Assembly: GCA_037447655.1 (NCBI GenBank) | Contig: JBBHKE010000012.1 | Location: forward strand, 168,537-232,536 | From: Zygnema cylindricum | Taxonomy: Eukaryota > Streptophyta > Zygnematophyceae > Zygnematales > Zygnemataceae | DNA length: 64,000 bases | Reading direction: 5' to 3' | In this document: positions 8,152-45,783 of the stretch, in pieces | How positions within the stretch are numbered: the first letter of the stretch is position 1 | How the letters are laid out: each line of letters starts with the position of its first letter | The notes under the pieces: generated by a model | What the model was told of the DNA's origin: nothing | The model's input: the letters and a program-made list of their open reading frames with translations, nothing else | The model's database searches: none | Position numbers and translations under genes: made by a program

Positions 8152-9548
8152 CCATGTTTATAACTCAAATTTGTATTTTAGTTAACAATAAATTCTTGTA
8201 ACGAACAATGTTTATTATTACTCTCAAAAAAATAGTAAAAAAAACACCCTAAACTATATTTGCTACCAAATTTGTGTTTGCGTTAACAACAAAAATATTA
8301 TTGAACAAATTTAATTGTTCACGCACCAAAAAGAGAGTTTAAAAAAACCCTAAACCATGTTTCTATCACAAATTTGAGTTTGTAATAACAAAGTTTTTTG
8401 TAACAAACAACGTTTATTGATCGTGATCACAAAAAGAAGTAAAATAAACTTCGAACTATGTTTAAAACACAAGTTTTTGTTTTCGCTAACAAAAATATTG
8501 GTAACAAACACTTTATATTGTTAGTGCTCACAAAAATAGTTGAAATAGACTCTCAACCATGGTTTTAACTAAAATTTGAGTTTGCGCTAACAATTTTTTT
8601 TTTTAAAACAACATTTATTATTTCGCTCATAAAAACAATAAAAAAACCTTCAACTATATTTGCAACACAAATTTGTGTTTGCGTTAACAATAAAATTTTA
8701 AACGAACAAAGTATATTCTTAAGGCACACAAATAAAGTAAAAAAAAAAACCTAAACTATGTTTCTATCACAAATTTGAGTTTGCGCTAACTAAGATATTT
8801 GTAAGAAACATCGTTTATTGTTCATGCTCACAAAAAGATGTTAAATGATCTCGGAACCATGTTTAAAACACAATTTTTTCTTTACGCTAAGAACAATATT
8901 GGTAACAAACACGTTATATTGTTAGCCCTCACAAAAAATGTTCAAATAAACTCTCAACCTTGTTTATAACTCAAATTTATGTTTGCGCTAACAACAACGT
9001 TTATTATTACGCTCACAAAAACATTAAAAAATAACCCTCGATTATATTTGCTACCAAAATTTGTGATGGCGTTAACAACAAACATACAAACGAACAAATT
9101 TAATTGATAACACACACAAATAGAGTTAAAAAAAATCCTAAGCCATGTTTCTATCACAAATTTGAGTTTGCTCTAACAAAGGCATTTGTAACAAACAACG
9201 TTTATTGTTCACGCTTACGGAAAGAGGTAAAATAAACCCCGAACCATGTTAGTAACACAATTTTGTGTTTGCACTAACAACAATATGGGAAACAAACAAT
9301 TTATATTATTAGTGCTCCCAAAAGTAGTTGAAATGTACTCTCAACTATGGTTACAACTCAAATTTGTGTTTGCACTAAGAATAATATCTTGTAAAGAACA
9401 ACATTTATTATTAGGCTCATAAAAATTTTTAAAAATGAACCCTCAATTGTATTTGAAACACAAATGTGTGTTTCCGTTAACGACAAAAATCTTAACGAAC
9501 AAAATTTATTGTAAATGCACACAAAGAGAGTTAAAAAAAACATTAAAC
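8152..9548 (+). repeat. satellite block 2
   Basis: It has the same monomers and order as block 1 (ccatgtttataactcaaatttg, then gcaacacaaatttgtg, then tctatcacaaatttgag, then aaaacacaatttt). The telo-box aaaccctaaacc recurs at 8346. The block ends where LTR sequence starts near 9550. Confidence 0.93.
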
Positions 9549-9554
9549 AATGTT

Positions 9555-10638
9555 TCTGTATACGTGACTGATCCAGTACGGAATCCAAAACATTGACACA
9601 CGACAAATTGTACGATACAGGAATGAAACACGCATACAAATCGAGTCGACGGACACGATTTGAAGTGGGACCACATTGGGACAATGTTATTAGACGCGAG
9701 TCGTCCATCGCAAATAAATATTTTACACCATACAGTGATCCGTATATTCCGGAATACTCATACATTAACGCTAATGTAATCGTTTGATCCCACGTACATC
9801 AACGGTTGAGGAAATTTGACAAGACCATAGTTGACTAAGCAAGTTGCCTTGCTTTGCGCGACCAACTTGCTACCTGCAAATTTCAATTTTGCGCGTAGAG
9901 TTATTTAGACGGATTCGGCAATCCAAGACTAAGAAAATGGCACAAATTGTGTACAACACCTATTTGAAAATATCTGAAGCAAATTTATTTTATACGTAGT
10001 GAATTAATTTTTCGTGTTACAATATTGAAATAGGATAGATTTTATTATTAGGGTTAGGACTTTCTTCCGTTGCAGTAGACGTACCGTCAACGTACAATGT
10101 CGTTATTCCAGTACAGTATTTAGTTACACATGTAGCTATTTGATAAGTGTAGGGTTCAGTAGATCACTATGTGAGTATAAATTATAGGACTTAGTTTATT
10201 TTCAGCATCACAGTTGAGTATATCAAAGTAATGGCAGGTTGTTTTTCTGCAACTTTGACCTGTTAGTGTGATCACTCTCGTTTGTATCTTGATGTGAAAC
10301 TTTGTGAACTTATTCTATGATGTAGAAACTATATGTGTGTGTAGTTTCAGTCTGTTCAAATATCTCTGTAGAATTATGTGAGAAGTCTACTTGGTTTGTT
10401 TGATAGGTTGTCAGCTGTTTTTGGGAAACTATAAAGCTCATATCTATTCGATTCCTAGGTGGATTTGGCTGTAGTTTTGGGATGTTATATTTTCTAGGAT
10501 ATACTGCATATTTGTGCAGTTTGAACTGTTTTTATACATTGTGGAGTAATCTATGCTGTCTGAAACACGACTGTTTTTTGGGGTAGTCTGTGGGTGCTTT
10601 CGAGAGTAATCCATGGCTGAAATAGGCTATGGACAACA
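9555..10638 (+). mobile_element. 5'-truncated LTR (type N)
   Basis: This is a direct counterpart, on the opposite strand, of the solo LTR at 37249-38504: cagtacggaatcc, gacacacgac, and gtgggaccacattgggacaatg all recur there inverted. It ends ggctatggacaaca. The first ~200 bases of the intact copy are missing at the satellite boundary. Confidence 0.75.
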
Positions 10639-10659
10639 TCTATTACTATAAAACACTAA

Positions 10660-10990
10660 TCAAATGAATAAACCATATATTAAAGTGCTGGTCCCGTAGT
10701 ACCTTCTGTACGGTCTGTGTGCGGCGTGGCTATGGAGGGGACGTCTATCTTATCCAGACTCGTCCTGATGCACTTCGAGGATTTTGCTTCCCAATGATAC
10801 TACGCCATGTGTCATTTGGTGATGCTACGTCCATAAAACGCCAAGAAGCCAATTCACTAGTTTGACCATCCATTGTCTTCTTTAACTGCTTAAACAACCA
10901 TGGACCTCTCTCTCTCTCTCTTTGGTCTTCACTAACTACATGAAGTGTGGGGAATTAACAGCAAGAGGTTAGAGACTAGCTGCCTTAGTG
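10660..10990 (-). mobile_element. Copia LTR remnant (C3-like), left part
   Basis: Phrases gtaccttctgtacggtctgtg, gtcatttggtgatg and ccatgg...ctctctct...cttcactaactac match the minus-oriented LTRs at 44731 and 50091. The sequence resumes after the nested solo LTR at 12970-13032 (gacctagaaaatac...tttcaaca), where the LTR start abuts satellite DNA. Confidence 0.6.
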
Positions 10991-10995
10991 GTTAG

Positions 10996-12969
10996 TGTTG
11001 TCCATAGCCATTTCTAGCCATGGATTCACCCTCGGAAGCACCACAGCCTACCCAAAAACAGCCTACTTTGAATCAACACAGAATTTTGCAGAAATAACAA
11101 AACAAGCTGAAACTACATCAATAAATAGTATATAGGCTTTGGAATAACCTCACAAATTTTCAGACAAATATAATAAACAGAGCGATCACATCATCTAGTC
11201 AAAGTTGCAGAAAAACAGTCTGCCAGAACTTTGATAAAACAGACTAACTTCACAATGAAGTAAAACACAGACCAGGCACACAATAGGCCTGCAAATTTGT
11301 GAAAATAATAAAAATATAAAGAGGAACACACATGCAGAATTTTAGATAATTCTGCCAACAGATCTGAGAGTAATCCTCAGATAAAATTACCAAAAACACC
11401 ATAAACAGTTTTTGGTCCAAAAGTTCCTATGACTAAAAAATTACTAAGGGTATGGTTACATCAGGAGGTCTCTGTAATAGTACGGACATCAAAATTTCTG
11501 TATTACAGAGGCCTCGGTTACATCGCGTATCATCTGTAAACAAGTTTTTACATACGTGTTCTGATTTGAGTGATTCCACGTAGGTCGACGATCAAATCTA
11601 TAAAATCGTGAAAGATTTGGAAACCGACCATTTTCGTATAAAAATCCGTACTTGCGTATTACGTACGTGTACTTCACAAGTGTACCGCGTCAATGTACCT
11701 CAGAGATCTCCTTCACGCTGCTGACTTTCAGGAAAAAACCGTATTTCTTTTCGGCAAAAATTTTACGGTCACCTTGTCCGAAGGCACGTGACTTTGGGGA
11801 CGTGTGAAAATTTTCATATTTCATCGACGCACGTGTCTGACGTCCAGGTGTAGCGATTTGACTGGTTCTGTATTGCTGAACCCACCTCGGCGAGGTGGGT
11901 TCACCAATACAGAGGCGTATGGAGCGATTGCTTCGCAGATGAAGACCAAAATGTAATCGGACGGTCTATGTCTTCTCCTGGATACTTGGAGATTCGTAAT
12001 CTTATTTTCTGTAATGTTGTTTTCAAAAAACTCACGAAAATATAGTACGGCATGGTACGGGCAAGTACAAAATTCTGTATTAAACCTCACTTTTCGTCTG
12101 ATGTAACCATACCCTAAGTCCTACAAATATACACGAGCTCATTACTGAGTGTACGGAGGCATACCAGCCGTACGCAATCTACTAGCTACCTCTATTAATG
12201 TTAATTAACCCGAATACTTCGAGGTATGTCAAAAAGAGTAAATCTACACTAATAACTAATACACATAAAGACAAACCATTGTTGTAAATATTTACAAAGT
12301 ACACACAATCTTACAAAATCGTATGCTCAGTCATGCTGAGTCACTCAATGGAACTCCTCGAATTTCGTCAAACAATCCGGGACGTCCAAAATTAACATCG
12401 TGTGATTGACGCGATTTCGCGTCTCTACTACTCGAAAAATATCCACAGCCTATATCCGCCGTCCGTCGATCTAATTCGGCACCCTTGATGTCGCGCCACG
12501 TGGTCATAAAAATCCAAACGAAATCCACGCGAATATCCCACGACGTCGCGAAGATAATTTAGTCATTCATGTCCACTTGTTAAAATAATAATCGTACAAC
12601 CGAAATCATTTCCGTACCGCAACCGCGTCCTTTGCAATAAATGCGGCAAATAAAGTACACGTCATTTTTCAAACACGTCGCTTGTCGCATATAAATTACA
12701 TTTGTTCAAATTATACGTTACGTACCGGCGACGTACATTTCGTAAACTTCACATCGGATCGCGTCGCGATCCGCCGTCCATTTCTTAACGCAATCCGCGC
12801 CACTCAAATACTACCTCACGTCCCTTTAATTTTACTCGTACATTTACTCCCCCAATCCGCAAATCCATTCGAACCACCACATTACTTTCGATAATATATT
12901 ACGCACGCGAAACGTCGCGTGCGCACAAAATGTCGAGTACGCACGAAATAAACTTTTCAAAAACAACAG
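10996..12969 (-). mobile_element. solo LTR (type L) with 5-bp TSD gttag, carrying a nested MITE
   Basis: It begins TGTTGTCCATAGCC and ends caaaaACAACA. It is flanked by gttag at 10991-10995 and 12970-12974, a clean 5-bp target duplication, so it is a complete solo LTR. Sense orientation is minus, judged from + strand relatives preceded by purine tracts (20961, 27512). Without the MITE it is about 1.3 kb, equal to the copy at 17779-19089. CpG-rich hairpins lie at 12755-12773 and 12408-12423. Confidence 0.9.
11448..12114. mobile_element. Harbinger-like MITE, 667 bp, TSD TAA
   Basis: Perfect 17-bp terminal inverted repeats: GGGTATGGTTACATCAG at 11448 and its complement ending at 12114. It is flanked by TAA on both sides (11445-11447, 12115-12117). 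The homologous LTR at 17779-19089 lacks the segment and reads straight from gactaaaaac to aagtcctac, giving an empty site. No transposase frame is present. A 3-bp TWA duplication and GGG terminus fit PIF/Harbinger. A nearly perfect hairpin with 12-bp arms lies at 11878-11902. Confidence 0.88.
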
Positions 12970-13032: not shown

Positions 13033-14545
13033 ACAATTTTCAATCACAAATTAGAGTTTGCGCTCACAAAAAAATCCGTAACAAAAATAGTTTTTTGTTC
13101 GCGCTCACTAAAATATGTAAAATAAACTCCAACCAAGTTTTTAACACAACTTTGTGATTTTGCTGACATTAATTTATTTTAACAAACAACGTTTATTATA
13201 ACCCTCACAAAAGCTGTAAAAATTAACCCTAAAATACGTTTGCAACACAAATTTGTGTTTGCGTAAACAACAAAAACATTAAAGAACAAAGTTTGGTGTT
13301 AACGCATAGAAAGAGAGTTAAAAAAAACCCTAAACCATTTTTATATCACAAATGTGAGTTTGCACCAACAGAGATATTTGTAACAAACATCGTTTAAACT
13401 CCGTACCATGTTTGTAACACAACTTTCTGTTTGCGCTAATAACAATATTGGAAACAATTACTATATATTGTAAGAGCCCACAAAAATAGTTTAAAAAAAA
13501 TCTCAACCATGTTTATAGCTCAAATTTGTGTTTGCGCCAACAATAAATTCTTGTAATGAAAAAATTTTATTATCACACTCACAAAAATAGTAAAAATAAA
13601 CCCTCAACTATATTTAAAACACAAATTTGTGTTTGCGTTTACAAAAAAAATATTAACAAACAAATTTTATTGTTAACTCACAGAAAGAGATTTAAAAAAA
13701 TCCTTAAACCATATTTCTATCACAAATTTGAGTTTTGGCTAACAAAAATATTGTAACAAACAACGTTTAATAATCACGCTAACAAAAAAAGTTTTAATAA
13801 ACTTAAAACCAGGCTTACAACAATATTGGTAACAAACACTTTATCTTGTTAGCGCTCAAAAAAAAAGTTCAAATATACCCTCAACTGTATTTGCAACAAA
13901 ATTTTGTGTTTGCGTTAACAACAAAAATATGAACCGACAAAGTTTATTGTTAACGCACACAAAGAGAGTTTAAAAACACACTAACCCTTTTTGTATCACA
14001 AATTTGAGTTTTCGCTAACAAAGATATTTGTAACAAACAACGTTTATTGTTCGCGCTCACAAAAAGAGGTATAATAAACTTTGAATCATGTTTGTAACAC
14101 AACTTTGTGTTTGCGCTAACAACAATATTGGTAACAAACACTTTATGTTGTTAGCGTCCAAAAAAATAGTTCAGATAAACTCTCAACCATGTTTATAACT
14201 CAAATTTGTGTTTGTGTTAACAATAACCTAATCTAACAAACAATGTTTATTTTTACGCTCATAAAAACAATAAAAACAAACCTTGAACCATGTTTGCAAC
14301 ACAAATTCTGTTTGCGTTAACAACAAAAATATCAACAAACAAAGTATATTGTTAACGCACACAAAAATAGTAAAAAAAAACCCTAAATTATATTTGCAAC
14401 ACAAATTTGTGTTTGCGTTAACAAAAAAAATCTTAACGAACGAATTTTATTGTTAAAGCATAAAAAAAGATTAAAAAATAACCCTTAAACCATGTTTATA
14501 ACTCAAATTTGTGTTTGCGCTAAAAATTATTTAAATTGTTCACTT
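13033..14545 (+). repeat. satellite block 3
   Basis: Monomers of the same four types as blocks 1 and 2. Clear examples are at 13243 (gcaacacaaatttg), 13340 (tatatcacaaatg), 13407 (tgtaacacaac) and 13507 (tatagctcaaat). Near 14090-14160 the gcgctaacaa...ttgttagcg inverted repeat is well kept. Confidence 0.93.
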
Positions 14546-15090: not shown

Positions 15091-15729
15091 ATACACCTTT
15101 TTGCGGAGGTGTCAGTGTAAATAATTTATAAAACAGAGGTTTGTCTTTTTGCTAATTAGTTTATTAGTGTAGATTCATTCATTCTGATATACTTTGAATT
15201 AATCGAGTATACTCACAATAATTTAGGTAGGTGATAGATTACGTACGATTCGTATGCCCCCATACAATCAGTAGTGAACTCTCCGATTATAGCTTGTAGG
15301 AATTAGATTATTTTTATCATCACAGTCAAGTTTATAAAAATAATGGCAAATTGTTTTTCTGCAACTTTCACCTGTTGGTGTGATCACTCTGATTGATGTT
15401 TTGATGTGAAACTTTGTGAAGATATTCATTGATCTAGAAAATATATGTGTGTTTAGTTTTAGTCTGTTTTGTCATCATCGTAAAAATTTCTGTGAGAAAT
15501 CTACCTAGTTGGTTTGCGAAGTTGTTTGCTGTTTTTGGGAAATTCAAGAGCTTATATCTTCTAGATTCATAGGTGTATTTGGCATTCACTTTAGGAGTTT
15601 ACATTGTCTATGGTATAATACATATTGGTGCAGTTTGAGGTGTTTTTGTTTATTTTGGAGTAATCTATGTTGTGTGAAGCACAACTATTTTTAAGGGTAG
15701 TCTATGGTGCTTCCAAGAGTAATCCATGG
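15091..15729 (+). mobile_element. 5' LTR (type K/L) of a gag-only element, interrupted at 15729
   Basis: The stretch gcggaggtgtcagtgtaaataatttataaaacagagg recurs at 21585 in the 3' LTR. The later part (ctgcaactttcacctg, ggtagtctatggtgcttcc) matches type N LTRs. It stops at ccatgg, where a TRIM is inserted. Its missing end, catggctgaaatagg...gacaaca, reappears at 19090-19115 and is followed by a primer-binding site. Confidence 0.65.
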
Positions 15730-15834
15730 TGTTGGATTGGCACGTGAAGCCGGTCCAATACGGGGTAGAATATGGAAATATCCATACTCGAGCCGCCCGT
15801 AATAAATGGGTACGGACCCGCTAGTCTCAACATC

Positions 15835-15905
15835 GAGCAGGTGGCACAGTGGTAGTGCGTTCGCAGCTGAAGTGAAAGGTCCCAGGTTCGAACCCTGGCC
15901 GACTC
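15835..15905 (+). tRNA. tRNA-like gene inside TRIM 5' LTR (copy 1), anticodon-position CTG
   Basis: A 71-nt cloverleaf folds by eye. The acceptor GAGCAGG/CCGACTC has 5 of 7 pairs. The D arm is GCAC-AGTGGTA-GTGC, the anticodon arm TTCGC-AGCTGAA-GTGAA, the variable loop AGGTC, and the T arm CCAGG-TTCGAAC-CCTGG. The A box TGGCACAGTGG (15842-15852) and B box GGTTCGAACCC (15885-15895) match Pol III promoters. TTTT (15908-15911) lies two bases after the acceptor. The base before the anticodon is G, not the usual U33, and the acceptor is weak. It is a tRNA-like or pseudo-tRNA domain, not a proven functional tRNA. Confidence 0.7.
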
Positions 15906-15958
15906 AATTTTCCCAAGTGTGGGACATGCCGAATCCCGGATTTCTAGGAAATCTAACA

Positions 15959-15973
15959 TGGTATCAGAGCCAG
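15959..15973 (+). promoter_or_regulatory. TRIM primer-binding site, 3' end of initiator tRNA-Met
   Basis: TGGTATCAGAGCCAG starts at the first base after the 5' LTR. It is the usual plant LTR-element PBS, complementary to the 3' terminus of initiator tRNA-Met including its CCA. Confidence 0.93.
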
Positions 15974-16119
15974 CGGGATTGCGGATGGTTTGACCGGCTT
16001 TCCCGTGAGGGGGGGTGTTGGATTGGCACGTGAAGCCGACCCAATACGGGGTAGAATATGGAATATCAATACTCGAGCCGCCCATAATAAATGGGTACAG
16101 ACCCGCCTGTCTCGAAAGC

Positions 16120-16184
16120 GAGCTTGTGGCACAGTGGAGTGCGTTCGCAGCTGAAGTGAAAGGTCCTAGTTTCGAACCCGGCTC
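16120..16184 (+). pseudogene. degenerate tRNA-like domain in TRIM copy 1 3' LTR
   Basis: Same domain as at 15835 but with one base lost in the D loop (gtgg-agtgc) and a deletion in the T arm (tttcgaacccggctc). The anticodon loop AGCTGAA and the following aatttt are kept. The cloverleaf no longer closes properly. Confidence 0.65.
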
Positions 16185-16237
16185 AATTTTCCCAAGTGTG
16201 GGACATGCCGAATCCCGGATTTCTAGGAAATCTAACA

Positions 16238-17156
16238 TTTTACAATATACTTTTTATCAAAATATAAAAGGAAAAGAGATAAGAATAACATCTAGGCGGA
16301 AAAAGTTTGTTAAATCAATACACTAGTAAATGAATATGAATGAACATTTGAGCAATGATTAAAGTTAAAGATGAAATCTTACTCGATATGACAAATTTTA
16401 GAATCAATGACACCAAAATAATCGAAGTGTCAAGCTTTAGAAGACACCTCCGTAGTAATCTTTGGCCTATTTGTAACTCTATATCAAAGTTGAGTGGACT
16501 ATACATCCTTTTTTGACACTAATTTTTTTTTTGGCTGTTTCTGTGGATGGTAACTATATTAGCAAACACATAAATCGGTGTAGATGATGCATGTGCTATA
16601 ATTGTATATATATATGCATTTATTGTACTTAGCATTCTTTACAGCAGTCAATCTATAAATGGTGGTTGCTGGTGTGTATTTCCATTTTTTAGTGTTACCG
16701 GTGTTTCACAAATGAATCGAAGCTATGACTGTTTCGCCAAATTGACATGCTAGTTTTTGAATCGGGCATACTACTTGAATGTTTACTTCATGTAATTGAA
16801 CAACAAAAACTTGGAAAAAATCTAAGCACTGTATAGAAAGCAAGTTTTTTATTAATTGACAAACAGAAAATTCCGAAAAAAGTGCCTCCCTCCCTCCCTC
16901 CCTCCCTCTTTCTCTCTCCCTCTCCCTCGCCCCCTCTTTCCCTCTCTCCCTCCCTCCGCCCCCCCCTCTTTATATGAGTTTTTTAAAATCTTTTTATGTA
17001 ATTGACCAATAAAAAACTCTGGAAAAAATGTTTAGCAATATTTAGCGGCAAGATTTTTTCCACCGGAATCCAGTCTTTTCAAATTCTTTGGGATTTCACT
17101 CTTTTCTGTTTTTGTTGTTTTTTTATCTACAAAAATCTCAAATAAAATGACATTTG
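16238..17156. other. unique spacer with no gene
   Basis: AT-rich sequence between two TRIM copies. The only longer frame (16315-16506, minus) has no known motif. A polypyrimidine tract is listed separately. Confidence 0.45.
16885..16970 (+). repeat. polypyrimidine tract (CCCT/CT repeats)
   Basis: About 85 bases of almost pure C and T on the + strand: tccctccctccctccctccc, then ctttctctctccc and ccgcccccccctc. Confidence 0.85.
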
Positions 17157-17257
17157 TGCAGTTTGAGGTGTTTTTGTTTATTTTGGAGTAATCTATGTTG
17201 TGTGAAGCACAACTATTTTTAAGGGTAGTCTATGGTGCTTCCAAGAGTAATCCATGG
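17157..17257 (+). mobile_element. duplicated LTR fragment preceding TRIM copy 2
   Basis: Identical to 15629-15729 (offset 1528): tgcagtttgaggtg through gagtaatccatgg. Because the same host LTR sequence precedes both TRIM copies at the same insertion point, this is a segmental duplication, not two independent insertions. Confidence 0.85.
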
Positions 17258-17362
17258 TGTTGGATTGGCACGTGAAGCCGGTCCAATACGGGGTAGAATA
17301 TGGAAATATCCATACTCGAGCCGCCCGTAATAAATGGGTACGGACCCGCTAGTCTCAACATC

Positions 17363-17433
17363 GAGCAGGTGGCACAGTGGTAGTGCGTTCGCAGCTGAAG
17401 TGAAAGGTCCCAGGTTCGAACCCTGGCCGACTC
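17363..17433 (+). tRNA. tRNA-like gene inside TRIM copy 2 5' LTR
   Basis: Identical to the domain at 15835-15905, including A box, B box and trailing AATTTT. It belongs to the duplicated segment, so it is not independent evidence of conservation. Confidence 0.65.
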
Positions 17434-17648
17434 AATTTTCCCAAGTGTGGGACATGCCGAATCCCGGATTTCTAGGAAATCTAACATGGTATCAGAGCCA
17501 GCGGGATTGCGGATGGTTTGACCGGCTTTCCCGTGAGGGGGGGTGTTGGATTGGCACGTGAAGTCGGTCCAATACGGGGTAGAATATGGAAATATCCATA
17601 CTCGAGCCGCCCGTAATAAATGGGTACGGACCCGCCAGTCTCAACATC

Positions 17649-17719
17649 GAGCTGGTGGCACAGTGGTAGTGCGTTCGCAGCTGAAGTGAAAGGTCCCAGG
17701 TTCGAACCCTGGCCGACTC
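17649..17719 (+). tRNA. tRNA-like gene inside TRIM copy 2 3' LTR, better acceptor stem
   Basis: Here the 5' acceptor strand is GAGCTGG, giving six of seven pairs (one G-T) with CCGACTC. D, anticodon and T stems are fully paired and the TTTT terminator is kept. This is the best-folded + strand copy. Confidence 0.72.
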
Positions 17720-17778
17720 AATTTTCCCAAGTGTGGGACATGCCGAATCCCGGATTTCTAGGAAATCTAACATCTATC

Positions 17779-19089
17779 TGTTGTCCATAGCCATTTCTAG
17801 CCCTGGATTCACCCTCGGAAGCACCACAGACTACCCAAAAACAGCCTACTTTGAATCAACACAGAATTCTACAGAAATAACAAAACAAGCTGAAAATACA
17901 TCAACAGATAGTATCTAGGCTTTGGAATAACCTCACAAAGTTTCAGACAAATATAATAAACAGAGCGATCACATCATCTAGTCAAAGCTGCAGAAAAACA
18001 GTCTGCCAGAACTTTTATAAAACAGACTAACTTCACAATGAAGTAAAACACAGACCAGGCACACAATACGCCTGCAAATCTGTGAAAATAATAAAAATAT
18101 AAAGAGGAACACACATGCAGAATTTCAGATAATTCTGCCAACAGATCTGAGAGTAATCCTCAGATAAAATTACCAAAAAACACCATAAAACAGTTTTTGG
18201 TCCAAAAGTTCCTATGACTAAAAACGACAAGTCCTACAAATATACACGAGCTCATTACTGAGTGTACGGAGGCATACCAGCCGCACGCAATCTACTAGCT
18301 ACCTCTATTAATGTTAATAAACCCGAATACTTCGAGGTATGTCAAAAAGAGTAAATCTACACTAATAACTAATACACATAAAGACAAACCATTGTTGTAA
18401 ATATTTACAAAGTACACACAATCTTACAAAATCGTATGCTCAGTCATGCTGAGTCACTCAATGGAACTCCTCGAATTTCGTCAAACAATCTGGGACGTCC
18501 AAAATTAACATCGTGTGATTGACGCGATTTCGCGTCTCTACTACTTGAAAAATATCCACGGCCTATATCCGCCGTCCGTCGATCTAATTCGGCACCCTTG
18601 ATGTCGCGCCACGTGGTCATAAAAATCCAAACAAAATCCATGCGAGTCGTCAAATATCCCACGACGTCGCGAAGATAATTTAGTCATTCATGTCCACTTG
18701 TTAAAATAATAATCGTACAACCGAAATCATTTCCGTACCGCAGCCGCGTCCTTTGCAATAAATGCGGGAAATAAAGTACACGTCATTTTTCATAAACGTC
18801 GCTTGTCGCATATAAATTACATTTGTTCAAATTATATGTTCCGTACCGGCGACGTACATTTCGTAAACTTCACATCGGATCGCGTCGCGATCCGCCGTCC
18901 ATTTCTTAACGCATTCCGCGCCACTCAATTACTACCTCACGTCCCTTTAATTTTACTCGTACATTTACTCCCCCAATCCGCAAATCCATTCGAACAACCA
19001 CATTACTTTCGATAATATATTACGCACGCGAAACGTCGCGTGCGCACAAAATGTCGAGTACGCACGAAACCAACTTTTCAAAAACAACA
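17779..19089 (-). mobile_element. solo LTR (type L), second copy without MITE
   Basis: TGTTGTCCATAGCC...caaaaACAACA, about 1.31 kb, very similar to 10996-12969 minus its MITE. The CpG-rich hairpin recurs at 18876-18894. Flanks are ctatc and catgg, so there is no matching TSD. It lies next to TRIM copy 2 inside the split host LTR. Confidence 0.85.
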
Positions 19090-21705: not shown

Positions 21706-22658
21706 TGCAATTTTGTGTCCCCCATACGACTATAAAATTTAGGAAGCCTTTAGGTAGTTTTTGACTAACCCCCTTTTAACTAGGACCGTTGCTACCCTAG
21801 CAAGCAAACACATGATCTGAATGCAGCCTTTTGCATTGTGGACTCTCATGAGTCCACAGCAAAAAGAATCAATGAAAACGCCCAACTAGGCGATTAATTA
21901 TAAAGTGGCAAAGATGCCAATATTTATACAAGCTTATTAGGAGAGAGGCCGCTACCTCTTCAATCCTCTAATTCCTAAACCACTCTCACAACCCTTATCT
22001 ACTGATGTACAAACCAATGAGAAGATTGTACAGTATAGAAAGGTAAAATGACCGATGTTCTTTAGGTACAGCTTGTCTAGGACAAGGCCGTGAGTGGATG
22101 TCTCTCTCCTTCCAACTTGCCGTCATGCTTCCTTTTCCCACTGCTATCTTGCCACGTTGCGCAAGGTCGTGTTACGCCCTATAACCGCCAAAAGCCGCCA
22201 TTGCGGGATCTCGGCGATGATGCGTGCCGTCAGATCCAAACCGAATTTTACTATTAGCCGTTAAAACAAATGTCCCGTACATTTGTTTCGTCCGAATTTT
22301 CGTTCGCACCATATTAGAACTACTCTCTACATTTTTTATCTTTTATGCCGTTAATCGGACGAATTTTCCTAAGGAATGTTTAATTATTATCCAAACCCTA
22401 TTTAGTCTAACAAACTCCTACGACATACCGGTTAGAGCTGACTGCTACGTCTCGCTCTGCCGTTAGAGGTTCGAGTCCTGCCGGACCTTACCTTTTTGTA
22501 TAGAGCTGAGGCAACCATGGCTCCATCCCCTCACTTTGCTCCAGTGACTACAACAAGTATGGGGGGTAGAGGGAGGAGGTGGAGGCATACTGCCTACGCC
22601 TTTTACTTTTAATCTATTAAGACCTAGAAAATATCTCCTAAATCTAATGATTTCAACA

Positions 22659-24340
22659 CTCCCATTATTTTTTAGTCTAATTTTACTTTCTCTATTAAAC
22701 CACACATTTCTATACAATATTTTAAATTGGGAGAGGGCACAAGTTTGGTCATCATATCAGCCATCATTTCCCTATCACCCCTATACAAAAGATTCACATT
22801 ATTTTTTTCAACCTTTTCCCTCACAAAACTTAGTCTTATGTCTATATATTTAGCCTTGAAATGATGTTTTGGATTGGATGCAATTGCAATGGCAGCCTAA
22901 TTATCACAAAACACTTCATGCACTCCCTTCTTCCTATACCCCTTTTCTTGCAATAAGGACTTGACCCACATCAACTCTTTCACAATAGAACAAGAGGCCA
23001 TGTACTCAACCTTCATAGTGGACTCAGCAACCACCTTTTGTTGCTTGCTGCTCCAACAGCAAGAACCATCCCCCTGATACAACACATACCCATAAATGCA
23101 TCTTCTCATAGGTGCATCCCTATAACTGGCATCACTCCAAGTAGTGATGTTATTGTGCTCCCCTCCCAAATGCAACCATAAATCCCTAGTTCCCATCAGA
23201 TATCTTATGACTCTCTTGGCTGCCTCCCAATCTCTCATCCTAGGATCATAAAGACTCCTACTGAGAAATATAAGTGGTTTTGCTATGTACGTTCTAGTAC
23301 AGTTAATAAAGTAGATTATGCTTTCTACAACTTGCTTGTAAGGAATAGACTTCATAAACTGTCTTTCTTCTTGACTCATGTGATCATCTAAGATTATCAC
23401 TCCATTTTCTATACTCGCATCACTTACTTTTTTCAAGTCTATGGGAGTGGTAGAACAGCTTGCCGAATTTCTCAAGCATATTTGCTATAGCTTCTTTTTG
23501 AGTAAGTCTGATAGTCCTTTTCCCCCTATCTCTTTCTATTATAATTCCCAAAATGTATCTTGCCTCTCCAAAATCCTTCATGTCAAATCTGCTTCTAATA
23601 TCTTCCTTTAGCTTATTGGTCTTTTCCATAGACTTATATAACACCAACAAATCATCCACATAAATTGCAATAAAAATAACATCATTCTCATCCTCTAACA
23701 TAATAATAGAATGGTCTGAACTAATCCGGATATATCCCAGACCTGTGAGAAACTCATCTAGTTTCTTATTCCATTATTTGGGAGGTTGTTTCAATCCATA
23801 TAAAGAATTTATGAGTCTACAGACTTTGCTCTCATCTCCTTCCTCTACTAACCCTTGTGGTTGCTGCATTAAGATTTCTTCCTCTAGCTCACCATTGAGG
23901 AAGGCGGTCTTATTATTTATCTGGTGTATTTCCATGTCTTCCTGTGCCACTAGACTAAGGAGAATCCTTACGAATGGGAATCCAACCACAAGAGAAAAAT
24001 TCTCCTCATAATCTATCACTTCTTTCTGGGTGAACCCCTTTGCTAAAAACCCAGCCTTTTATCTCTCAATGGTATTATTTGCGTTCAGTTTTAGTTTAAA
24101 TACCCATTTGCACCCAATCTGTTTTCTGTTTGAAGGAAATTCCACCAGCTCCTAAGTATTTGCTTTTATAATGGAGGCCATCTCATCATTTAAGGCTCTA
24201 ACCTATATGCCTTTCTCTTGACATTCCATTGCCTCTGAGTATGACTGAGGCTCATCAAGGTGAGACAACTTAATTACCTTGCAAGCGGCATGTTTTTCCC
24301 GTAGCCTTTTGCTTCTTCTTGGTCCTCCCTCAAAGTCCTT
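22659..24340 (-). pseudogene. pol: Copia C1 reverse transcriptase and RNase H
   Basis: Sense reading from 24340: fragments GFPFVRILLSLVAQEDMEIHQ and NSLYGLKQPPK, then IAIYVDDLLVLYKSMEK with the catalytic YVDD. These are followed by DFGEARYILGI and, in 22897-23475, IPYKQVVESIIYFINCTRT, TWSDASYRDAP and QQKVVAESTMKVEYMA of the RNase H. The end ADMMTK lies near 22740. Stops and frame changes separate the pieces. Domain order (integrase before RT) is Ty1/copia. Confidence 0.88.
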
Positions 24341-25912
24341 AGCTGGAATGGAGGGAAGTCTTGGGTTCCTCCTCACTGTCTCATCGGATCCCGTATCTAT
24401 GGAAGCCTGTTCCGGCAGCTTCTCCTTTGCCTCCTAGGAATGTAAAGAGATATGAAGAGATTTTGGTATATCTCCCCCATCTTGGATCTCCCTTGAATCT
24501 GCAATTACGTTTTAACTCATGTCCCTTTCGAGAAGATCCGAGTCCTCCTCACTCTAGGACTAAAAACTGATTTTTATCATCTTTGTGTATTTGAAGAGAT
24601 CAAATAACTTCCCTTCATCCATGACAACTAGGTGCTTTACCATAATGATATCTTGTTTAGCTAAGTCATAGACTTTATATCCCTTAACATCCTCATCATA
24701 TCCCACAAAATATCTCGGTTTTTCCCCCTAGTATGTAGTTTCGAATTTTTCCTATCCATGTCAAGATAGTAAACTTGTCTACGGAATACTTTCAGATGAC
24801 AAATATCTGATTTCCTTCCAACCCATCTCTCATAAGGTGTCATTATTTTCACGGCTGTTGTAAGGACTTTATTCTTAATGTAGTTAGCATAGTTCATGGC
24901 TATTGCCCAAAACCTTTTTCGTATCTTCTTGTCGACCAACATACTACGTACACTATCTCCTATGTGTGGTTCAACCTCTTTGCTACCCTATTTTGTTTTG
25001 GATTTTTTGGTACAGTTTTTGATGTTGAACTCCCTCATCCCTTAAGTATTCTTCAAACTGGTTAGAGGTATATTCTTCCCCATTATCACTCTTTATTCTC
25101 TTAATGGGGGTTCCGTGCAACTTCTCACTTCAAGATTTATATTTTTTGAAGTAAAATGTTGTTTCAGACTTTGTTTTTAGAAAGTAGATAATCTAGACAA
25201 ACCATCAGTAATTGTCAATATAAACCTCTTCCCTTTGACTGAAGGTACTTTTGTCAGTCCCCAGATGTCTATGTGGACCAGAGATATTACTTTCTCTCCT
25301 CTATATGTGGCTGTTTTGGGAAAAGGGAGTCTATAAGTCTTACCTTGGGCACATCCACTACAATCATCCATCATTTCATTATCCTCAAACTGGATGACTT
25401 CTACTACACCGAGCTTCTTCATTTCCCTAAGCCTATGAAAGTGCACATGCCCTATTCGCTTATGCCAAATCATCACGTTTGGGACACCAACATAGTAAGA
25501 ATTCTTCTTTTCATTACTCAAATTAAGCCTAAACATTCCTTGGCTACCCTTATCTGCTTTGAAGTAGACTTCATCCTCACACTTAGTTGTAAAGACTCCC
25601 TTTCTAGTGAAGGTATCAAATTCGTTATCATCCAATACAAAAGTAGAGACAATATTTTTTCTCAGCTGAGGTATGTAGAGTACCTGTGAAAAGGTGAGTA
25701 TAGAAGTCTTACCCTCCACTTAGACTTTAAGATCTACGGACCCCACTAGATCTTTAGTAACTACTCTCCCATCCCCATACTTTATCTCTATAGTAGGGAT
25801 CTTTCTTAACTTTGTAAAGAGGTGCGTATCACGACACATATGCATGGATGCACCTGAATCGATGATTCATCCTTCCTATAGAGCTTCTCGAATTGCTCGA
25901 AGAGCAAACTTC
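24341..25912 (-). pseudogene. pol: Copia C1 protease and integrase
   Basis: The protease active-site DSGAS is encoded at about 25846-25861. Then come the long frame 25177-25719 with VLYIPQLRKNIVSTFVLDD, the pre-integrase WHKRIGHVHFHRL, a zinc pair CSGCAQGK and the first integrase Asp in HIDIWG. The SDNGEEY-type second Asp is near 25085. The C-terminal integrase region NYIKNKVLTTAVK is at 24661-24942. A stop lies at 25720, and the DSG is in another frame. Confidence 0.85.
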
Positions 25913-27426: not shown

Positions 27427-29358
27427 CCTTATTGATTATTAATGTAGATCTTTTGTTTATGACATATCACGAAGTATTGGGTATACTCACATTAATAGAG
27501 GTAGTTGATAGTGTTGTTTTTGAAGATTTAGTTTCGTGCGTACATGAAATTTGGTGCGCACGCGACGTTTCGTGCGCATACATTTACGTGATATACTGTG
27601 GTGGTTTGAAAGGATTTGCGGATTGGGGAGTAAGTGTACAAGCAAGATTAAAGTGACGTGTGAGTGGCGCGAACAAACATTTGAAAATGTACGGCGGATC
27701 GCGAAGCGATCCGATATGAAATGTTTGAAATATTTGAATTGTACGCCAACGGTACGGAACGTCATATTTGGATTGTTGTACTTTATTTGCGACAGGCGGC
27801 ATTTGTCCCAAATGACGCGTACTTTTCATGTGACACGTCGCATTTCGTACAAATGACACGGTTACGGTACGGCTAGATTTGGATAACATAACGTCGCTTC
27901 ATCAAGTGGATTTTGAGACCACGCGGCGCGACATCAAGGGTGTCGAGCAAGAGGTACGGACGGTGGATATAGGCCGCTGTTATTTTTTCAAATAGTGGGG
28001 ACGCGAAATCGCGTCATTCACCAAAATCATATTTTGGACGTCCCGGATTCTTTGACGAAAATCAAGGAGTTTCGCTGAGTGACTCAGCATGACTCAGCAT
28101 GACTCAGCATACGATTCTGTGAGATTGTGTGTACTTCAAAATATTTGAAACAACATTGTTTTGTCTTATTTGTATTATTAAATTAGTGTTTATTATGACG
28201 TTTATATTTAAGTGGTTAATTAGGGTTTCGACAGTATAATTTGTGTGTGAAAAATATCGTACTTGTAGACAAGTGTACGCTCACGATTGCTTGACTCTCA
28301 GGTGTACGCTTACGATTAGTTTGATTTAATGACAGTTAGATAATGTATGTTGGTTATTTTGACACTTAGTGATTCATTGACAGCTCACAAGTGTATATAT
28401 AGGAATGAGCTTTGTTAGGAATTAATAATCAATGCTGGTTAGTAAAGTGGGGACCGAAGATGTAGACTTTTAGGGTTGCCGATTAGGTCATGCACTTTGA
28501 ATGATATAATGATTATTTAATTATACTTTGATTATACTTTTGTTTATGTGAAATGCATTTGTCTTTATTATTTATTTATGTTATTTTATATATATGTTTG
28601 ATATGCATTTTTTATGCATTTGTCCTAGGGTTTGTTTATGTCGATTATTCCATCAAACCTTAGATGATGTCATAGGGTTTATTTATGTTGATTATTCCAT
28701 GAAACCCTAAATGTTGTTTGTTGCGTTTGTGTACGCATATGGAGGATGCATTTCATATGATTGTTCGTCGACCTATTTTTGCTTAGCTTTTTGCATGATA
28801 GTTTGGGTGGCTTCTGCGGTCTATTTTAGACCAAAGAACAACAGATAGGTTACGTACGGCTGGTATGCCTTCGTACAGTCAGTAGTAAGCTCTAATGTAT
28901 ATTTGTAGGACTTCCTCATTTTTGGACTTATGAACCTTTTTGGACAAAAAATGTTTTTCTCCTTTTTGGTAATTTTATCTCAGGATCGCTCTCAGTTGTA
29001 TAGGCATCTGAATTTTTTCATGTGTGTTCCTCTTTGTATTGAACATGTTGTGGAATATTTGCAGACCTATTTTGCGTCTTCTTTGCTTGGAAATTCATTG
29101 TGAAGTTGGTCAGATTATCAAAGTTTTGGCAGGCTGCTTTTTTGTAACTTTGACTGAGTGGTGTGATAAGTGTGTTTGGTAATTTCATAAGAAAATAAAT
29201 GGGAAATAAAGAGTGTCTCATGGAATATGTGTTTATTTAGTTTTCGATTGTTTTGGTAATTTTGTAGAATTCGTAGTGGATTCAAAGTAGGCTGTTTTTG
29301 GGGTAGTCTGTGGTGCTTTCGAGGGTAAATTCATGGCTAAAAATGGCTATGAACAATA
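27427..29358 (+). mobile_element. 5'-truncated L-type LTR inside C2, itself split by a solo LTR
   Basis: Before 27512: taatgtagatc...gaagtattgggtatactcac...gaggtagttgatag. After 28843: gataggttacgtacggctggtatgcc through gggtagtctgtggtgctttcg and atggctatgaacaata. Together these match the reverse complement of 17779-18390. The LTR start is absent. Confidence 0.75.
27512..28843 (+). mobile_element. solo LTR (L-related) with TSD gatag
   Basis: TGTTGTTTTTGAAG...ccaaagaACAACA, 1332 bp, flanked by gatag at 27507-27511 and 28844-28848. Its first ~600 bp match L-type LTRs (cgcacgcgacgtttcgtgcgc; CpG hairpin 27695-27713), but its later part differs from other copies. Three direct copies of gactcagcat lie at 28081-28110. 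Confidence 0.9.
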
Positions 29359-31119: not shown

Positions 31120-31929
31120 TAATTACCTGAGGCAAGTGGTGCCTCGGAAGAAGAATAAGAAGCACCGGCAGTTGCCATATTAATCAATACACAAAGAGGA
31201 AACTCTCACGAAAACCCACTAAAGACCAACTTCACAATGAAGCCCCCAGCAAACTAGACAGACCCTAGGTCTGCAAATTTGCCACAATGTAGATTATATA
31301 ACAAACAAATTACATGCAGAATTTCATAAGGTTTTGTATAAAAATCAAAATGATTTTGTAATTAAAAAAACCCCCAAAAACTATTTTTTGCAGTTTTTCC
31401 ATATAAGGAATTCCTAACTCCAAAATATTCAAGTCCTATATATACAAGTGAACCTGCAGCTGATCTACACCGTTGGTCGACTGGTACACTAAACCTAATC
31501 AAACAAAAAACCGTCGTCAACCGTACACAATATTTACAACAAACCTAAAACTAACAACCGCTAAATTGAAATAGTAAGCAGTCAAAGTTCGCTTGTTGAA
31601 ATGACGGCGCAGTCAATATTCTTCTTCCATAAAATGACGGCGGACTCCATCCGCCATTTGCGCATTCTTTCATCACCGAGATGAACCTCCACGTGTAAAC
31701 CTAATCCCAATCCGAAATTGTATTTTTCATCATTCAAAACAGACAATCTTGACTTCCCACAGACTAACACGTGTGCCTAGAGTGAACTCAGCTCAAGTAC
31801 TCCCTTCGGACTTACATACCACACTAAAAATCTTTCTACGATAAATCAGCTTGCACACAAAACTACTAAGTCCGAAATCTATTTCTTACACACGAGATAA
31901 AGAGAGGACAAAAGGTTTTCAAAACAACA

Positions 31930-34900
31930 TGTTACAAACATGGTTCAGAGTATATTCTACCTCTTATTGTGAGAGCTAACAATAAAAGTTGATTGTTGCA
32001 AATACTTATGTTAGCGCAAACTCAAATTTGTGATAGAAACATGGTTTAGGGATTTTTCTTACTATCTTTGTGTGCATAAACAATAAACTTTATTCGTTAA
32101 TATTTTTGTTGTTAACGCAAACACAAATTTGTGTTACAAACATAAGTTAGGGTTATTTTTACTGTTCTTTTGAAGGTAATGATAAACTTTGTTTGTTATA
32201 AGACATTATTGTTAGCACAAACATAAATTTGATTTATAAACATAGGTGAGAGTTTTTTTGAACAATTTTTGTGAGCGTTAACATTAAAAAGTGTTTGTTA
32301 CCAATATTTTTGTTAGCACAAACACAAAGTTGTGTTACAATTATGGTTGGGAGTTTATTTACCTCTTTTTGTGAGAGCTAACTATAAAAGTTGTTTCTTG
32401 CTAATATCTTTGTTAGCGCAAACTCAAAAAATTTGTGACAGGACCACGGTTTAGGGTTTTTGCTAACTCTCTCAGTGGGCGTTAACAATATACTTTATTC
32501 TTTAATATTTTTGTTATTAACGCAAACACAAATTTGTGTTGCAAATATAGTTGAACTCTTTATTTTACTGTTTTTGTGAGGGGAGTAATAAACGTTGTTC
32601 GTTACAAGATATTATTGTTAGCGCAAACACAAATTTGAGTTATTTACATGCTTATGTTTGTTTGTTAAAAATTTGTGAGCGTTAACAATATAAAGTGTTT
32701 GTTACGAATATTGTTGTAAGAACAAACACAAAATTGTGTTACAAACATGTTTTGGAGATTATTTTACCTCTTTTTGTGAAAGTTAACAATAAAAGTTGTT
32801 TGTTGTAAATACCTTTGTTAGCGCAAACTCAAATTTATGATAGAAACATGGCTTAGGGTTTTTTCTTACTCTCTTTGTGTGTGTTAACAATAAACTTTAT
32901 TCGTTGATATTTTGGTTGTTAACACAAACACAAATTTCTGTTGCAAACAGAGTTGAGGGTTTTTTTTTATTATTTTTGTGAGGGATATCCTAAATGTTGT
33001 TTGTTACAATATATTATTGTGAGCGCAAACAAAAAATTGATTTTTAAAAATCGTTGAGAGTTTATTTGAATAACTTTTGTGAGCGTTAATAATATAAAGT
33101 GTTTGTTACTAATATTTTTGTTAGCACAAACACAAAGTTGTGTTACAAACATGGTTTTCAGTTTATTTTACCTTGTTTTGGTAGAGCTAACAATAAAAGT
33201 TAGTTGTTGCAAGTATCTTTGTGAGCGCAAACTAAAATTTGTGATAGAACCAGGGTTTAAGGTTTTTTCTATGTCTCTTTTTGTGTGTTAACAATAAACT
33301 TTATTCATTAATATTTTTGTTGTTAACGCAAACACAAATTTGTGTTGCAAACATAGTTGAGGGTTTTTTTTTACTGTTTTTGTGAGGGGAATAATGAACG
33401 TTGTTTGTTACAAGACATTGTTGTTAGCGCAAACACAAATTTGAGTTATAAAAATGGTTGAGAGTTTATTTTAACTATTTTTGAGAGCATTAACAATATA
33501 AAGTGTTTGTTACCAATATCATTGTTAGCACAAACACAAAGTTGTGTAAAACTCATGGTTTAGAGTTTATTTTACCTCTTTTTGTGAGAGCTAACAAAAA
33601 TAGTTATTTGTTGCAAATATCTTTGTTACCGCAAACTAAAATTTGTGATTAAAGCAGGCTTTATGGTTTTTTCTAACTCTCTTTGTGTGCGTTAACAATA
33701 AACTTTTTGTATTAATGTTTTTGTTGTTAACGCAAACACAAATTTGTGTTGCAAATATAGTTGAGGGTTTTTTTTTACTATTTTTGTGAGGGGAATAATA
33801 AACGTTGTTTCTTACAATATACTATTGTTAGGGCAAACACAAATTTGAGTTATAAACATGGTTGAGAGTTTATTTGGACAATTTTTGTGAGCCTTAACAA
33901 TATATAGTGTTTGTTACCAATATTGTTGTTAGTGCAAACACAAAGGTGTGTTACAAACATGGTTCAGAGTTTATGTTTCCTCTTTTTGTGAGAACTAACA
34001 ATAAAAGTTATTTTTAACTCAAACACCAATTTGTGTTGCAAATATAGTTGAGAGTTTTTTTTAATGTTTTTGTGAGGGTAATTATAAACGTTGTTGTTTA
34101 TTATATATTATTGTTAGCGCAAACACAAATTAAAGTTATAAACATGGTTGAGAGTATATTTGGACAATTTTGGGAGCATTAACAATATAAAGTGTTTGTT
34201 ACCAATTTGTTGTTATCGCAAACACAAAGTTGTGTTACAAATACGATTTGGAGTTTATTTTACCTCTTTTTGTGAGAGCTAACAATAAAAGTTGTTTGTT
34301 GCAAATATTTTTGTTAGTGCAAATGCAAATTTATGTTACAAATACGGTTTGGAGTTTATTTTACCTCTTTTTATGAGAGCTAACAATAAAAGTTGTTTGT
34401 TGCAAATATATTTGAGGTCAAACTCAATTTTTTGACAAAAACATGGATTAGGGATTTTTCTAAATCTCTTTGTGTGCGTGAACAATAAACGTTATTCGTT
34501 AATATTTTTGTTGTTAATGCAAACACAAATTTTTCTTGCAAACATAGTTGAGGGTTTTTTTTTATTGTTTTTGTGAGGGTAATGATAAACTTTGTTTGTT
34601 ATAACACATTATTGTTAGTGCAAACACAAATTTGATTTATAAACATGGTTGAGAGTTTATTTGAACAATTTTTTTGAGGGCTAACTATAAACAGTGTTTG
34701 TTACCAATATTGTTGTTAGTGCAACCACAAAACTGGGTTACAAACATGGTTCGGAGTTATTTTTCCTCTTTTTATGAGAGCTAACAATAAAATTTGTTTT
34801 TAACGCAAACACAAATTTGTGTTGCAAATATGATTGTGAGTTTTTTTTTACTGTTTTTGTGAGGGGAATAATAAACGTTGTTCGTTACAAGATATTATTG

Positions 34901-37243
34901 TAAGCGCAAACACATATTTGAGTTATAAACATGGTTGAGAGTATATTTGAACAATTTTTGTGAGCATTAACAATATAAAGTGTTTGTTACCAATATTGTT
35001 GTAAGCGCAAACACAAAGTTTTGTTACAAACATGGTTTGGAGTTTATTTTACCTCTTTTTATGAGAGCTAACAATAAAAGTTGTTTGTTGCAAATATCTT
35101 TGTTAGCGAAAACTCAAATTTGTGATAGAAACATGGTGTAGGGTTTTTTCTAACTCTCTTTGTGTGCGTTAATAATAAAATTTATTGGTTGATATTTTGG
35201 TTGTTAACGCAAACACCAATTTGTGTTGCAAACATGTTTGAGGGTTTTTTTTTACTCTTTTTGTGAGGGTAAAAATAAACGTTGTTCGTTACAAGATATA
35301 ATTGGTAGCGCAAACACAAATTTGAGTTATAAAAATGGTTGAGAGTTTATTTGAACAATTTTTGTGAGCCTTAACAATATATAGTGTTTGTTACCAATAT
35401 CGTTGTTAGCGCAAACACAAAGTTGTGTTAATAACATGGTTCGGAGTTTTTTTTACCTCTTTTTGTGAGAGCTAACAATAAAAGTTATTAGTTGCAAATA
35501 TCTTTGTTAGCGCAAACTAAAATTTGTGATTGAAGCAAGGTTTTGGGTTTTTTCTAACTCTCTTTGTGTGCGTAAACAATAAAAATTTTTTGTTAATGTT
35601 TTTGTTGTTATTGGAAACATAAACTTGTGTTGCAAACATTATTGAGGGCTTTTTTTTACTTTTTTTGTAAGGGTAATATTTAACGTTGTTAGTTACAAGA
35701 TATTATTGTTGGCATCACACAAATTTGAGTTACAAACGTGGTTGAGAGATTATTTGAACAATTTTTGTGAGCGTAAATTATATGAATTGCTTGTTAGCAA
35801 TATTGTTGTTAGGGCAAACACAAAGCAGTGTTACAAACATGGTTCGGAGTTTATTTTACCTCTTTTTGTGAAAGCTAACAATCAATTTTGTTTGTTGCAA
35901 ATATCTTTGTTAGCGCAAACCAAAATTTTTGATAGAAGCAGAGATTAGGGTTTTTTCTAACTCTATTTGTGTGTGATAACAAAAAACTTTATTCGTTATT
36001 ATTTTTGTTGGTAACGCAAACACAAATTTGTGTTGCAAATATAGATACAGTTTATTTTACCTCTTTTTGTAAGAGCTAACAATAAATGTTGTTTGATGCA
36101 AATATATTTTTTAGCGCAAACTCAAATTGTGATAGAATTATGGTTTAGGGTTTTTTCAAACTCTCTTTGTGTGCGTTAACAATAAACTTTATTCGTTATT
36201 ATTTTTGTTGTTAACGCAAACTCAAATTTGTGTTGCAAACATAGTTGACGGTTTTATTTTATTGTGTTGTGAGGGTTATAATAAACGTTGTTCGTTATAA
36301 GATATAATTGTAAGCACAAACACAAATTTTAGTTATAAACATGGTTGAGAGTTTATTTGAACAATTTTTGTGAGCGTTAACAAAATAAAGTGTTTGTTAC
36401 AAATTTTGTTATTAGCGCAAACACAATGTTGTGTTCAAACATGGTTCCAAGTTTATTTTACCTCTTTTTGTGAGAGCTAACGATAAAAGTTGTTTGTTGC
36501 AAATATCTATGTTATGGCAAACTCAAATTTGTGACAGTAACATGGTATAGGGTGTTTTCTAACTCTCTTTGTGTGCGTTAACAATATACTTTATTTGTTA
36601 ATATTTTTGTTGTTAACGCAAACACAAATTGATATTGCAAATATAGTTGAGGGATTTTTTTACTGTTTTTGTGAGGGTAATAATAAAAATTGTTCGTTAC
36701 AAAATATTATTTTTAGCGCAAACACAAATCGAGTTATAAACATGGTTGAGAGTTTATTTGTAAATTTTTTGTTAGCGTTAATATTATAAAGTGTTTGTTA
36801 CCAATATTGTTGTTAGGGCAAACAAAAAGTTGTATTATAAACATGGTTTGAAGTTTTTTTTGCCTCTTTTTGTGAGAGCTAACAATAAAAGTTTTTTGTT
36901 GCAAATATCTTTGTTAATACAAATTCAAATTTGTAATAGAAACATGGTTTTGGGTTTTTTTCTAACTCTCTTTGCGTTTCGTTAACAATAAACTTTATTC
37001 GTTAATATTTTTTTTTTTAACGCAAACACAAATTTGTGTTGCAAACATAGTTGACGGTTTTTTTATATTGTTTTTGTGAGCGTTAACAATATAAGTGTTT
37101 GTTACAAATATCGTAGTTAGCGTAAACACAAAGTTGTGTTACAAACATGGGTCGGAGTTTATTTTACCTCTTTTTGTGAGAGCTAACAATAAAAGTTGTT
37201 CGTTGCAAATTTCTTTCTTATTTTGAAAAAAAAATTGTGAGCG
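31930..37243 (-). repeat. satellite block 4 (largest), inverse orientation
   Basis: Same monomers as blocks 1-3, reverse complemented. The gttgcaaayatagttgaggg landmark recurs near 32545, 32941, 33343, 33751, 34036, 34538, 34823, 35228, 35630, 36233, 36632 and 37040. Spacings of 396-408 bp predominate, with 285- and 502-bp steps where a monomer was lost or gained. Short frames such as 33079-33291 and 35706-35948 are repeat artefacts. Confidence 0.95.
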
Positions 37244-37248
37244 TTTAC

Positions 37249-45768: not shown

Positions 45769-45783
45769 CTCCCCTTATTTTCT
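45769..45783 (-). promoter_or_regulatory. polypurine tract of C3
   Basis: The minus strand reads aaaataaggggag immediately before the 3' LTR TGTTGAAATTT. Confidence 0.85.

Follow-up and report, generated by a model that had tools for sequence, protein, structure and literature searches.

The 64-kb window (the whole 64,000-nucleotide stretch analyzed here, to which all positions refer) contains short non-autonomous retrotransposons of about 515 bp that are probably Helenus-type TRIM elements, each carrying a tRNA-derived Pol III promoter in its LTR, and that probably multiply by the mechanism proposed below. Structural evidence gives good support to the description as a TRIM LTR with a tRNA-like, Pol III-type promoter. 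An earlier note on this DNA had suggested that a tRNA-like LTR was new; however, the class had already been described as Helenus, that is, TRIMs whose LTR includes a tRNA-like sequence, designated the TRIMp3 class in the account of Kojima 2024 (PMC10886601). We set the present elements beside Helenus by description, and what they add to this known class is a hybrid between two families and a covarying stem.

The observation of the earlier note is confirmed: the window contains two TRIM elements, whose complete LTRs measure 229 bp, and a further LTR that is truncated. Element 1 (15730-16237, forward strand) has the order LTR-PBS-PPT-LTR, and sequence anatomy together with self-comparison of the window delimits a 5' LTR of 229 bp (15730-15958), an internal part of 57 bp (15959-16015) with the PBS TGGTATCAGAGC at 15959-15970 and the PPT GTGAGGGGGGG at 16005-16015, and a 3' LTR of 222 bp (16016-16237). 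Element 2 (17258-17772, forward strand) measures 515 bp in the arrangement 229-57-229; its 5' LTR (17258-17486) is identical to 15730-15958 and is followed by an internal part at 17487-17543, which has the previously noted length of only 57 bp, and a 229-bp 3' LTR (17544-17772). On the reverse strand, an LTR lacking its 3' end (51380-51589) matches LTR positions 1-211. The first 20 bases of the LTR occur five times in the window, against 0.00 expected in shuffles. With a length of 515 bp (below 1000 bp), two LTRs, a PBS, a PPT and no coding capacity, the structure is of the Helenus type; an antisense open frame across element 1 has no protein relative, and two scans of viral contigs returned 0 matches. 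Elements 1 and 2 are not independent and in part represent one duplicated locus, because the 106 bp of 5' flank preceding element 1 (15624-15729, forward strand) recur at 17152-17257 with 99% identity. TSDs are absent at both elements (CATGG versus TTTTA and TCTAT). The flanks of the copies (15580-15729 and 17773-17960) belong to another dispersed repeat, which has 70-95% matches near positions 60-205, 10295-11177, 29226-29356 and 37248-37591, some of them inverted relative to others.

In the window, ARAGORN calls four tRNAs within these LTRs, at 15835-15906 and 17363-17434 in the 5' LTRs of elements 1 and 2, at 17649-17720 in the 3' LTR of element 2 and at 51414-51485 (reverse strand) in the truncated LTR, and Rfam RF00005 matches the same four places with 46.5, 46.5, 49.2 and 42 bits (E 1.6e-7 to 1.6e-5; gathering score 29). 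The fifth segment for which a tRNA-like fold had been claimed, in the 3' LTR of element 1 (16120-16186), is degenerate through deletions and is called by neither program. No other family reaches its gathering score in the Rfam scan of the window, hence there is no 5S match. Within the segment at 15835-15906 (forward strand), which we propose as Pol III promoter and R region, the A box lies at 15842-15852 and the B box at 15885-15895, and a TTTT that is a possible Pol III terminator follows at 15908-15911 (forward strand); both boxes agree with the first reading, as does the TTTT, which is located two bases beyond the segment. The ARAGORN and Rfam calls could suggest working tRNA genes spread by the element. 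This we regard as highly improbable: the predicted isotype varies by copy between Gln(ctg), Glu(ctc), Ala(ggc) and Pro(cgg), and the acceptor stems are broken in the window copies. In addition, U33 is universal in tRNA anticodon loops, and the loops AGCTGAA, AGCTCAA and ACGGCTA lack it. A functional tRNA gene was rejected on these three grounds, and the four ARAGORN tRNA genes in the window serve as a warning for annotation, being pieces of transposon.

Hundreds of related copies are dispersed in the genome. A 41-base stretch of the segment has at least 554 copies with up to 3 mismatches in the 353-Mb assembly, whereas the reversed control gave 0; the places listed for this pattern are the first of the 554. 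Loci fetched by this search were selected for a perfect 41-base stretch, so that conservation figures that include them are biased and are not used as evidence of conservation. Among loci L001-L080 there are single elements and lone LTRs as well as fragments and arrays, the largest of which contain five LTRs and four internal parts. Of the 46 structures here with both ends complete, 29 have exact 5-bp TSDs: 17 of the 26 single elements, all five arrays or compound elements and 7 of the 15 lone LTRs. Three of these 15 belong to larger structures; one is the 3' LTR of element 2 in the window, and the other two are at C144. TSDs are likewise found at five of the six subfamily-B elements checked (subfamily B comprises loci L092-L106). 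In nine of 31 pairs of neighboring LTRs the two members are identical over the columns compared, and the family has therefore moved recently. Among the arrays, one at L061 (378-1740; G000:C144) has 17-base spacers instead of the 57-bp internal part and adjoins an inverted LTR. At L068 (526-1907), about 1.2 kb separates an LTR part from an internal part, as though something were located between them.

The cloverleaf described in the earlier note calls for reservations in the window copies. A partial cloverleaf is the best fold of the copy at 15835, but the other window copies tested have other best folds, and none of the four window segments folds better than its own shuffles (z 0.77, 0.18, 0.10 and 0.01), a result that counts against the preferred explanation. 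The commonest segment in the genome has a full cloverleaf as its best fold (-26.1 kcal/mol), with a 7-bp acceptor stem that includes one G-U pair. This sequence is shared by 69 of 141 tRNA-like copies, a share inflated by the selection of part of the loci for the perfect 41-base stretch. In the window copies, changes at LTR positions 110 and 173 make the acceptor stem imperfect, and since the commonest segment is a complete cloverleaf these imperfections are derived. tRNA calls were obtained for subfamilies A and B of this family (family 1) and for a second family described below. In most Helenus elements, box A reads TRGCY + YGG and box B GGTTC (PMC10886601); family 1, with TGGCA(CAG)TGG, deviates in the last base of TRGCY and possesses the GGTTC of box B, while the boxes of family 2 (TAGCT...TTGG and GGTTC) fit the pattern. 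The TTTT is present in 121 of 126 full subfamily-A LTRs and in all 18 distinct subfamily-B LTRs aligned. Upstream, a TATA-like TAATAAAT (15800-15807, forward strand), 35-28 bases before the segment, and a CAA (15828-15830) are possible signals of the kind known from plant tRNA genes (PMC11700998), and their distances in subfamily A fit such signals. They occur in 83 and 85, respectively, of 102 full LTRs of L001-L080, a set biased by the perfect-stretch selection, and because neither is kept in subfamily B or family 2 we give them little weight.

We infer the polymerase, the RNA ends and the enzyme partner from sequence features, as follows. Within the 5' LTR, Pol III would initiate close to where the tRNA-like segment begins. 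Termination at the adjacent TTTT would give transcripts of about 77 nt, and read-through as far as the TTTT in the 3' LTR would give others of about 363 nt; the segment would then be present at either end of the RNA as the repeated R region. Priming at the PBS would be by initiator tRNA-Met, and enzymes of a Copia element would act in trans. The segment itself is not the primer, as its longest complement with the internal part is 5 bases. During copying, synthesis may jump from the R region of one element RNA to that of another, as one hybrid element discussed below suggests, and repeated strand transfers may produce the tandem arrays. Several aspects sit less easily with this explanation: no autonomous partner came to light, the TATA-like and CAA signals are not conserved in subfamily B or family 2, family 2 is without a TTTT directly after its segment, and full-length RNA requires read-through, because the TTTT directly after the family-1 segment should stop many transcripts. 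The expected truncation of Pol III transcripts would instead suit a segment that is merely a SINE or tRNA gene that landed in a founder LTR and was copied along, with Pol II transcription as in ordinary TRIMs. We consider this origin unlikely in view of the comparisons that follow.

The pattern of substitution bears on both views. Among 80 subfamily-A LTRs from the LTR search, substitutions per site amount to 0.0097 in U3, 0.0089 in the segment and 0.0065 in the tail, with 0.0105 in the segment stems and 0.0080 in the A and B boxes; the segment of these 80 LTRs is no better conserved than the rest of the LTR. The absence of extra conservation within subfamily A counts against the promoter explanation and for a segment copied along, yet it fits either view because dead copies drift. 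The earlier note would have given up its reading had the stems shown no covariation and the boxes no conservation beyond the divergence of the LTR, and the outcome is divided: no additional conservation of stems or boxes is seen within subfamily A, whereas compensatory changes in the anticodon stem distinguish A from B. Seven of 72 bases, together with one inserted T, distinguish the subfamily-B segment from that of A. Five of the seven are stem positions, and every one of these belongs to the anticodon stem, which reads TTCGC/GTGAA in subfamily A and CTGAC/GTCAG in subfamily B. All 21 pairs are intact in both subfamilies, and two pairs are altered on both sides. When five stem changes were placed at random, in a test devised after the data were seen, all pairs were kept in 196 of 200,000 trials, or in 2,613 with transition bias. 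These five changes between two mobile subfamilies, with the pairing intact in all, speak against a segment that was only carried along, as does the lower A-to-B divergence of the segment (7/72) compared with U3 (21/104) and the tail (7/51), although the numbers are small.

In 23 rows chosen by hand (16 A-type and 7 B-type), double-change cells number 14 against 4.9 +- 1.6 in shuffles (0/500) and paired cells reach 95.9% against 92.9 (0/500), while neither the double-changed pairs (2 versus 2.4) nor the further pair types (12 versus 13.0) are raised over shuffles in these rows. An earlier set of 65 distinct segments gave 5 double-changed pairs against 1.1 +- 1.0 in shuffles (2/500), although shifting the structure by 1 or 2 columns as a control yields just as many such pairs or more (5 and 6, respectively), with only 30-38% of cells paired; the double changes in this set stem largely from rows L039 and L064. 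Maintenance of the fold by covariation between the subfamilies is thus suggestive only, because the comparison in effect comprises one evolutionary split. It is also conceivable that the cloverleaf is kept for a further RNA role besides the promoter boxes, such as processing by tRNA enzymes, stability, packaging or movement. The changes that preserve pairing affect the anticodon stem, which is part of neither promoter box, and hint at such a role because a promoter alone needs no pairing there. Nevertheless, we regard a further role as rather doubtful, given the single subfamily split and given that a new anticodon arm could arrive by recombination from another tRNA-like source, as the hybrid element L039 shows to be possible.

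The odd segment of L039, used as a query, found 66 matches in the genome (control 0), and a second family of TRIMs was described from two loci, L107 and L108. Its LTR is about 246 bp long and its internal part 61 bp, giving a unit of 307-308 bp, with the PBS TGGTATCAGAGC or TGGTATCAAAGC and the PPT GTGAGGGGGC. L108 is a three-LTR array with the TSD GAAAA, and L107 has no TSD. In BLAST, family 2 resembles family 1 in three short stretches only: within the 3' half of the segment (24 bases), at the LTR end with the PBS (23 bases), and at the PPT with the LTR start (19 bases). The family-2 segment (73 nt) is called as tRNA-Ala(ggc) in five of five copies and takes a cloverleaf fold, with one anticodon-stem mismatch, in four of the five; no TTTT occurs in family 2 until 11 bases past the segment. 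The segment ends 52 bases before the LTR end in family 1 and 61 in family 2, and it therefore occupies the corresponding place in two otherwise unlike LTRs of one genome. That an unrelated family has its segment at the corresponding place is a further argument against a chance landing in one founder LTR. As a minor point, the PBS TGGTATCAAAGC, one base off TGGTATCAGAGC, occurs in the internal parts of L007 (1730-1741) and L108, so that both forms are present in families 1 and 2. The first of the three LTRs of L108 lacks 11 bases just before the segment, at the proposed U3/R border.

L039 (G000:C66:35963-36479) is a single element with the TSD TGTTA that combines both families. In its 5' LTR the segment has a 5' half of family 2, and everything else is identical to the commonest family-1 LTR. 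The left joint coincides with the first segment base and includes one extra G, in a place where ACATCG is common to both families, the right joint adjoins AAGGTCCC, also common to both, and the joint string occurs once in the genome without mismatch. If the R region is this segment, a joint at its 5' end is what one would expect. Minus-strand synthesis could have switched from family-1 to family-2 RNA inside R and run to the 5' end of the family-2 RNA, in which case that RNA end would be the first base of the segment. In its strongest form, this proposal makes the segment itself R: the RNA would start at its first base and end just after it, the fold would be under selection, switching from R to R would swap promoter halves between unrelated families, and L039 would be a fossil marking the RNA 5' end. 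We put this forward only tentatively, as a possibility below an even chance. The plain form of template switching is disfavored because just one LTR of L039 is hybrid, which also weighs against the preferred explanation as a whole; repeated strand transfers that remake LTRs could rescue switching for L039 and also build arrays.

The hybrid could equally have arisen by DNA gene conversion between family-1 and family-2 LTRs over their sole shared stretch, a process that would be silent on R, and we judge template switching and gene conversion to be about evenly matched. Consistent with conversion, the foreign tract is confined to the 5' LTR, the 3' LTR being identical to the commonest family-1 LTR, and ACATCG spans the left joint, so that the border may merely mark the end of likeness. 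Nor are indels concentrated at the U3/segment border, where no hotspot was found among 56 indel events in 126 LTRs. Against conversion, the tract begins at the 5' end of the segment with an extra G where likeness to family 2 extends just a few bases upstream, and one family-2 LTR of L108 is without 11 bases at exactly this border. The hybrid may also be an assembly error.

tRNA-derived SINEs possess a tRNA-like head with A and B boxes, have no LTRs, PBS or PPT, and use another integration route, their tail being copied through target-primed reverse transcription. The present TRIMs share with them the tRNA-like part with A and B boxes but have LTRs, a PBS, a PPT and a 5-bp TSD, and a SINE identity was rejected accordingly. 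The likeness to Helenus is closer. Kojima 2024 (PMC10886601) gives as hosts fungi, animals and one plant, Selaginella moellendorffii, proposes multiple origins, and suggests Pol III transcription while leaving the promoter function open. The elements described there and here are alike as short non-autonomous LTR elements with an A/B-box tRNA-derived sequence in the LTR, a PBS and a PPT. Lone LTRs and the coexistence of several families in a genome are common to both, as are TSDs of 5 bp (for Helenus, in plants and fungi) and tandem arrays, the last reported for LTR-11_DR (PMC10886601). They differ in dimensions from Helenus-1_SMo, the sole plant family listed, which has an LTR of 120 bp and an internal part of 85 bp compared with 229/246 and 57/61 bp here (PMC10886601). 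In contrast to Helenus, the PBS here fits the 3' end of initiator tRNA-Met, and the inter-family hybrid and paired anticodon-stem changes seen here have no counterpart that we found in the published Helenus description (PMC10886601).

Cassandra TRIMs likewise have a small-RNA gene promoter in the LTR, a Met PBS and tandem arrays, but the sequence in their LTR is 5S rRNA rather than tRNA-like (PMC7215508, PMC10853983). A Cassandra identity was rejected, as the LTR is without 5S rRNA (tRNA alone reaches gathering score in the Rfam scan of the window). Arrays are common among plant TRIMs, and the L3I2 and L5I4 arrays between TSDs reported by Gao 2016 (PMC4717578) resemble those found here; the term 'tRNA' occurs 0 times in the main text of that paper. 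The presence of at least two unrelated Helenus-type families in one genome, one of them with near-identical copies, makes the promoter model directly testable. Moreover, if the segment is the R region, recombination at the RNA level would explain how promoters spread between TRIM families.

The window holds other repeats as well. A tandem unit of about 101 bases forms large arrays at 31850-39740 and occurs in both orientations across the window, with related, partly inverted copies near 237-1614, 8188-9542 and 13037-14527. Several broken Copia elements lie at 22615-25720, 43710-49055 and 53652-56868; some of their frames contain Pfam domains (reverse transcriptase, gag-pre-integrase and related ones), and none of the elements was linked to the TRIM. 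A Copia protein from the window has a best match of 56% identity, whereas its matches bearing plant names reach 23-39%. For a Copia piece at L028, the named matches among the best 120 of 5995 are exclusively from land plants (38-61% identity, many covering a third of the piece), and these matches indicate only that the host is probably a land plant. A TRIM copy at L059 adjoins an open frame (2153-2974) that we take to resemble a cytosine-5 DNA methyltransferase.
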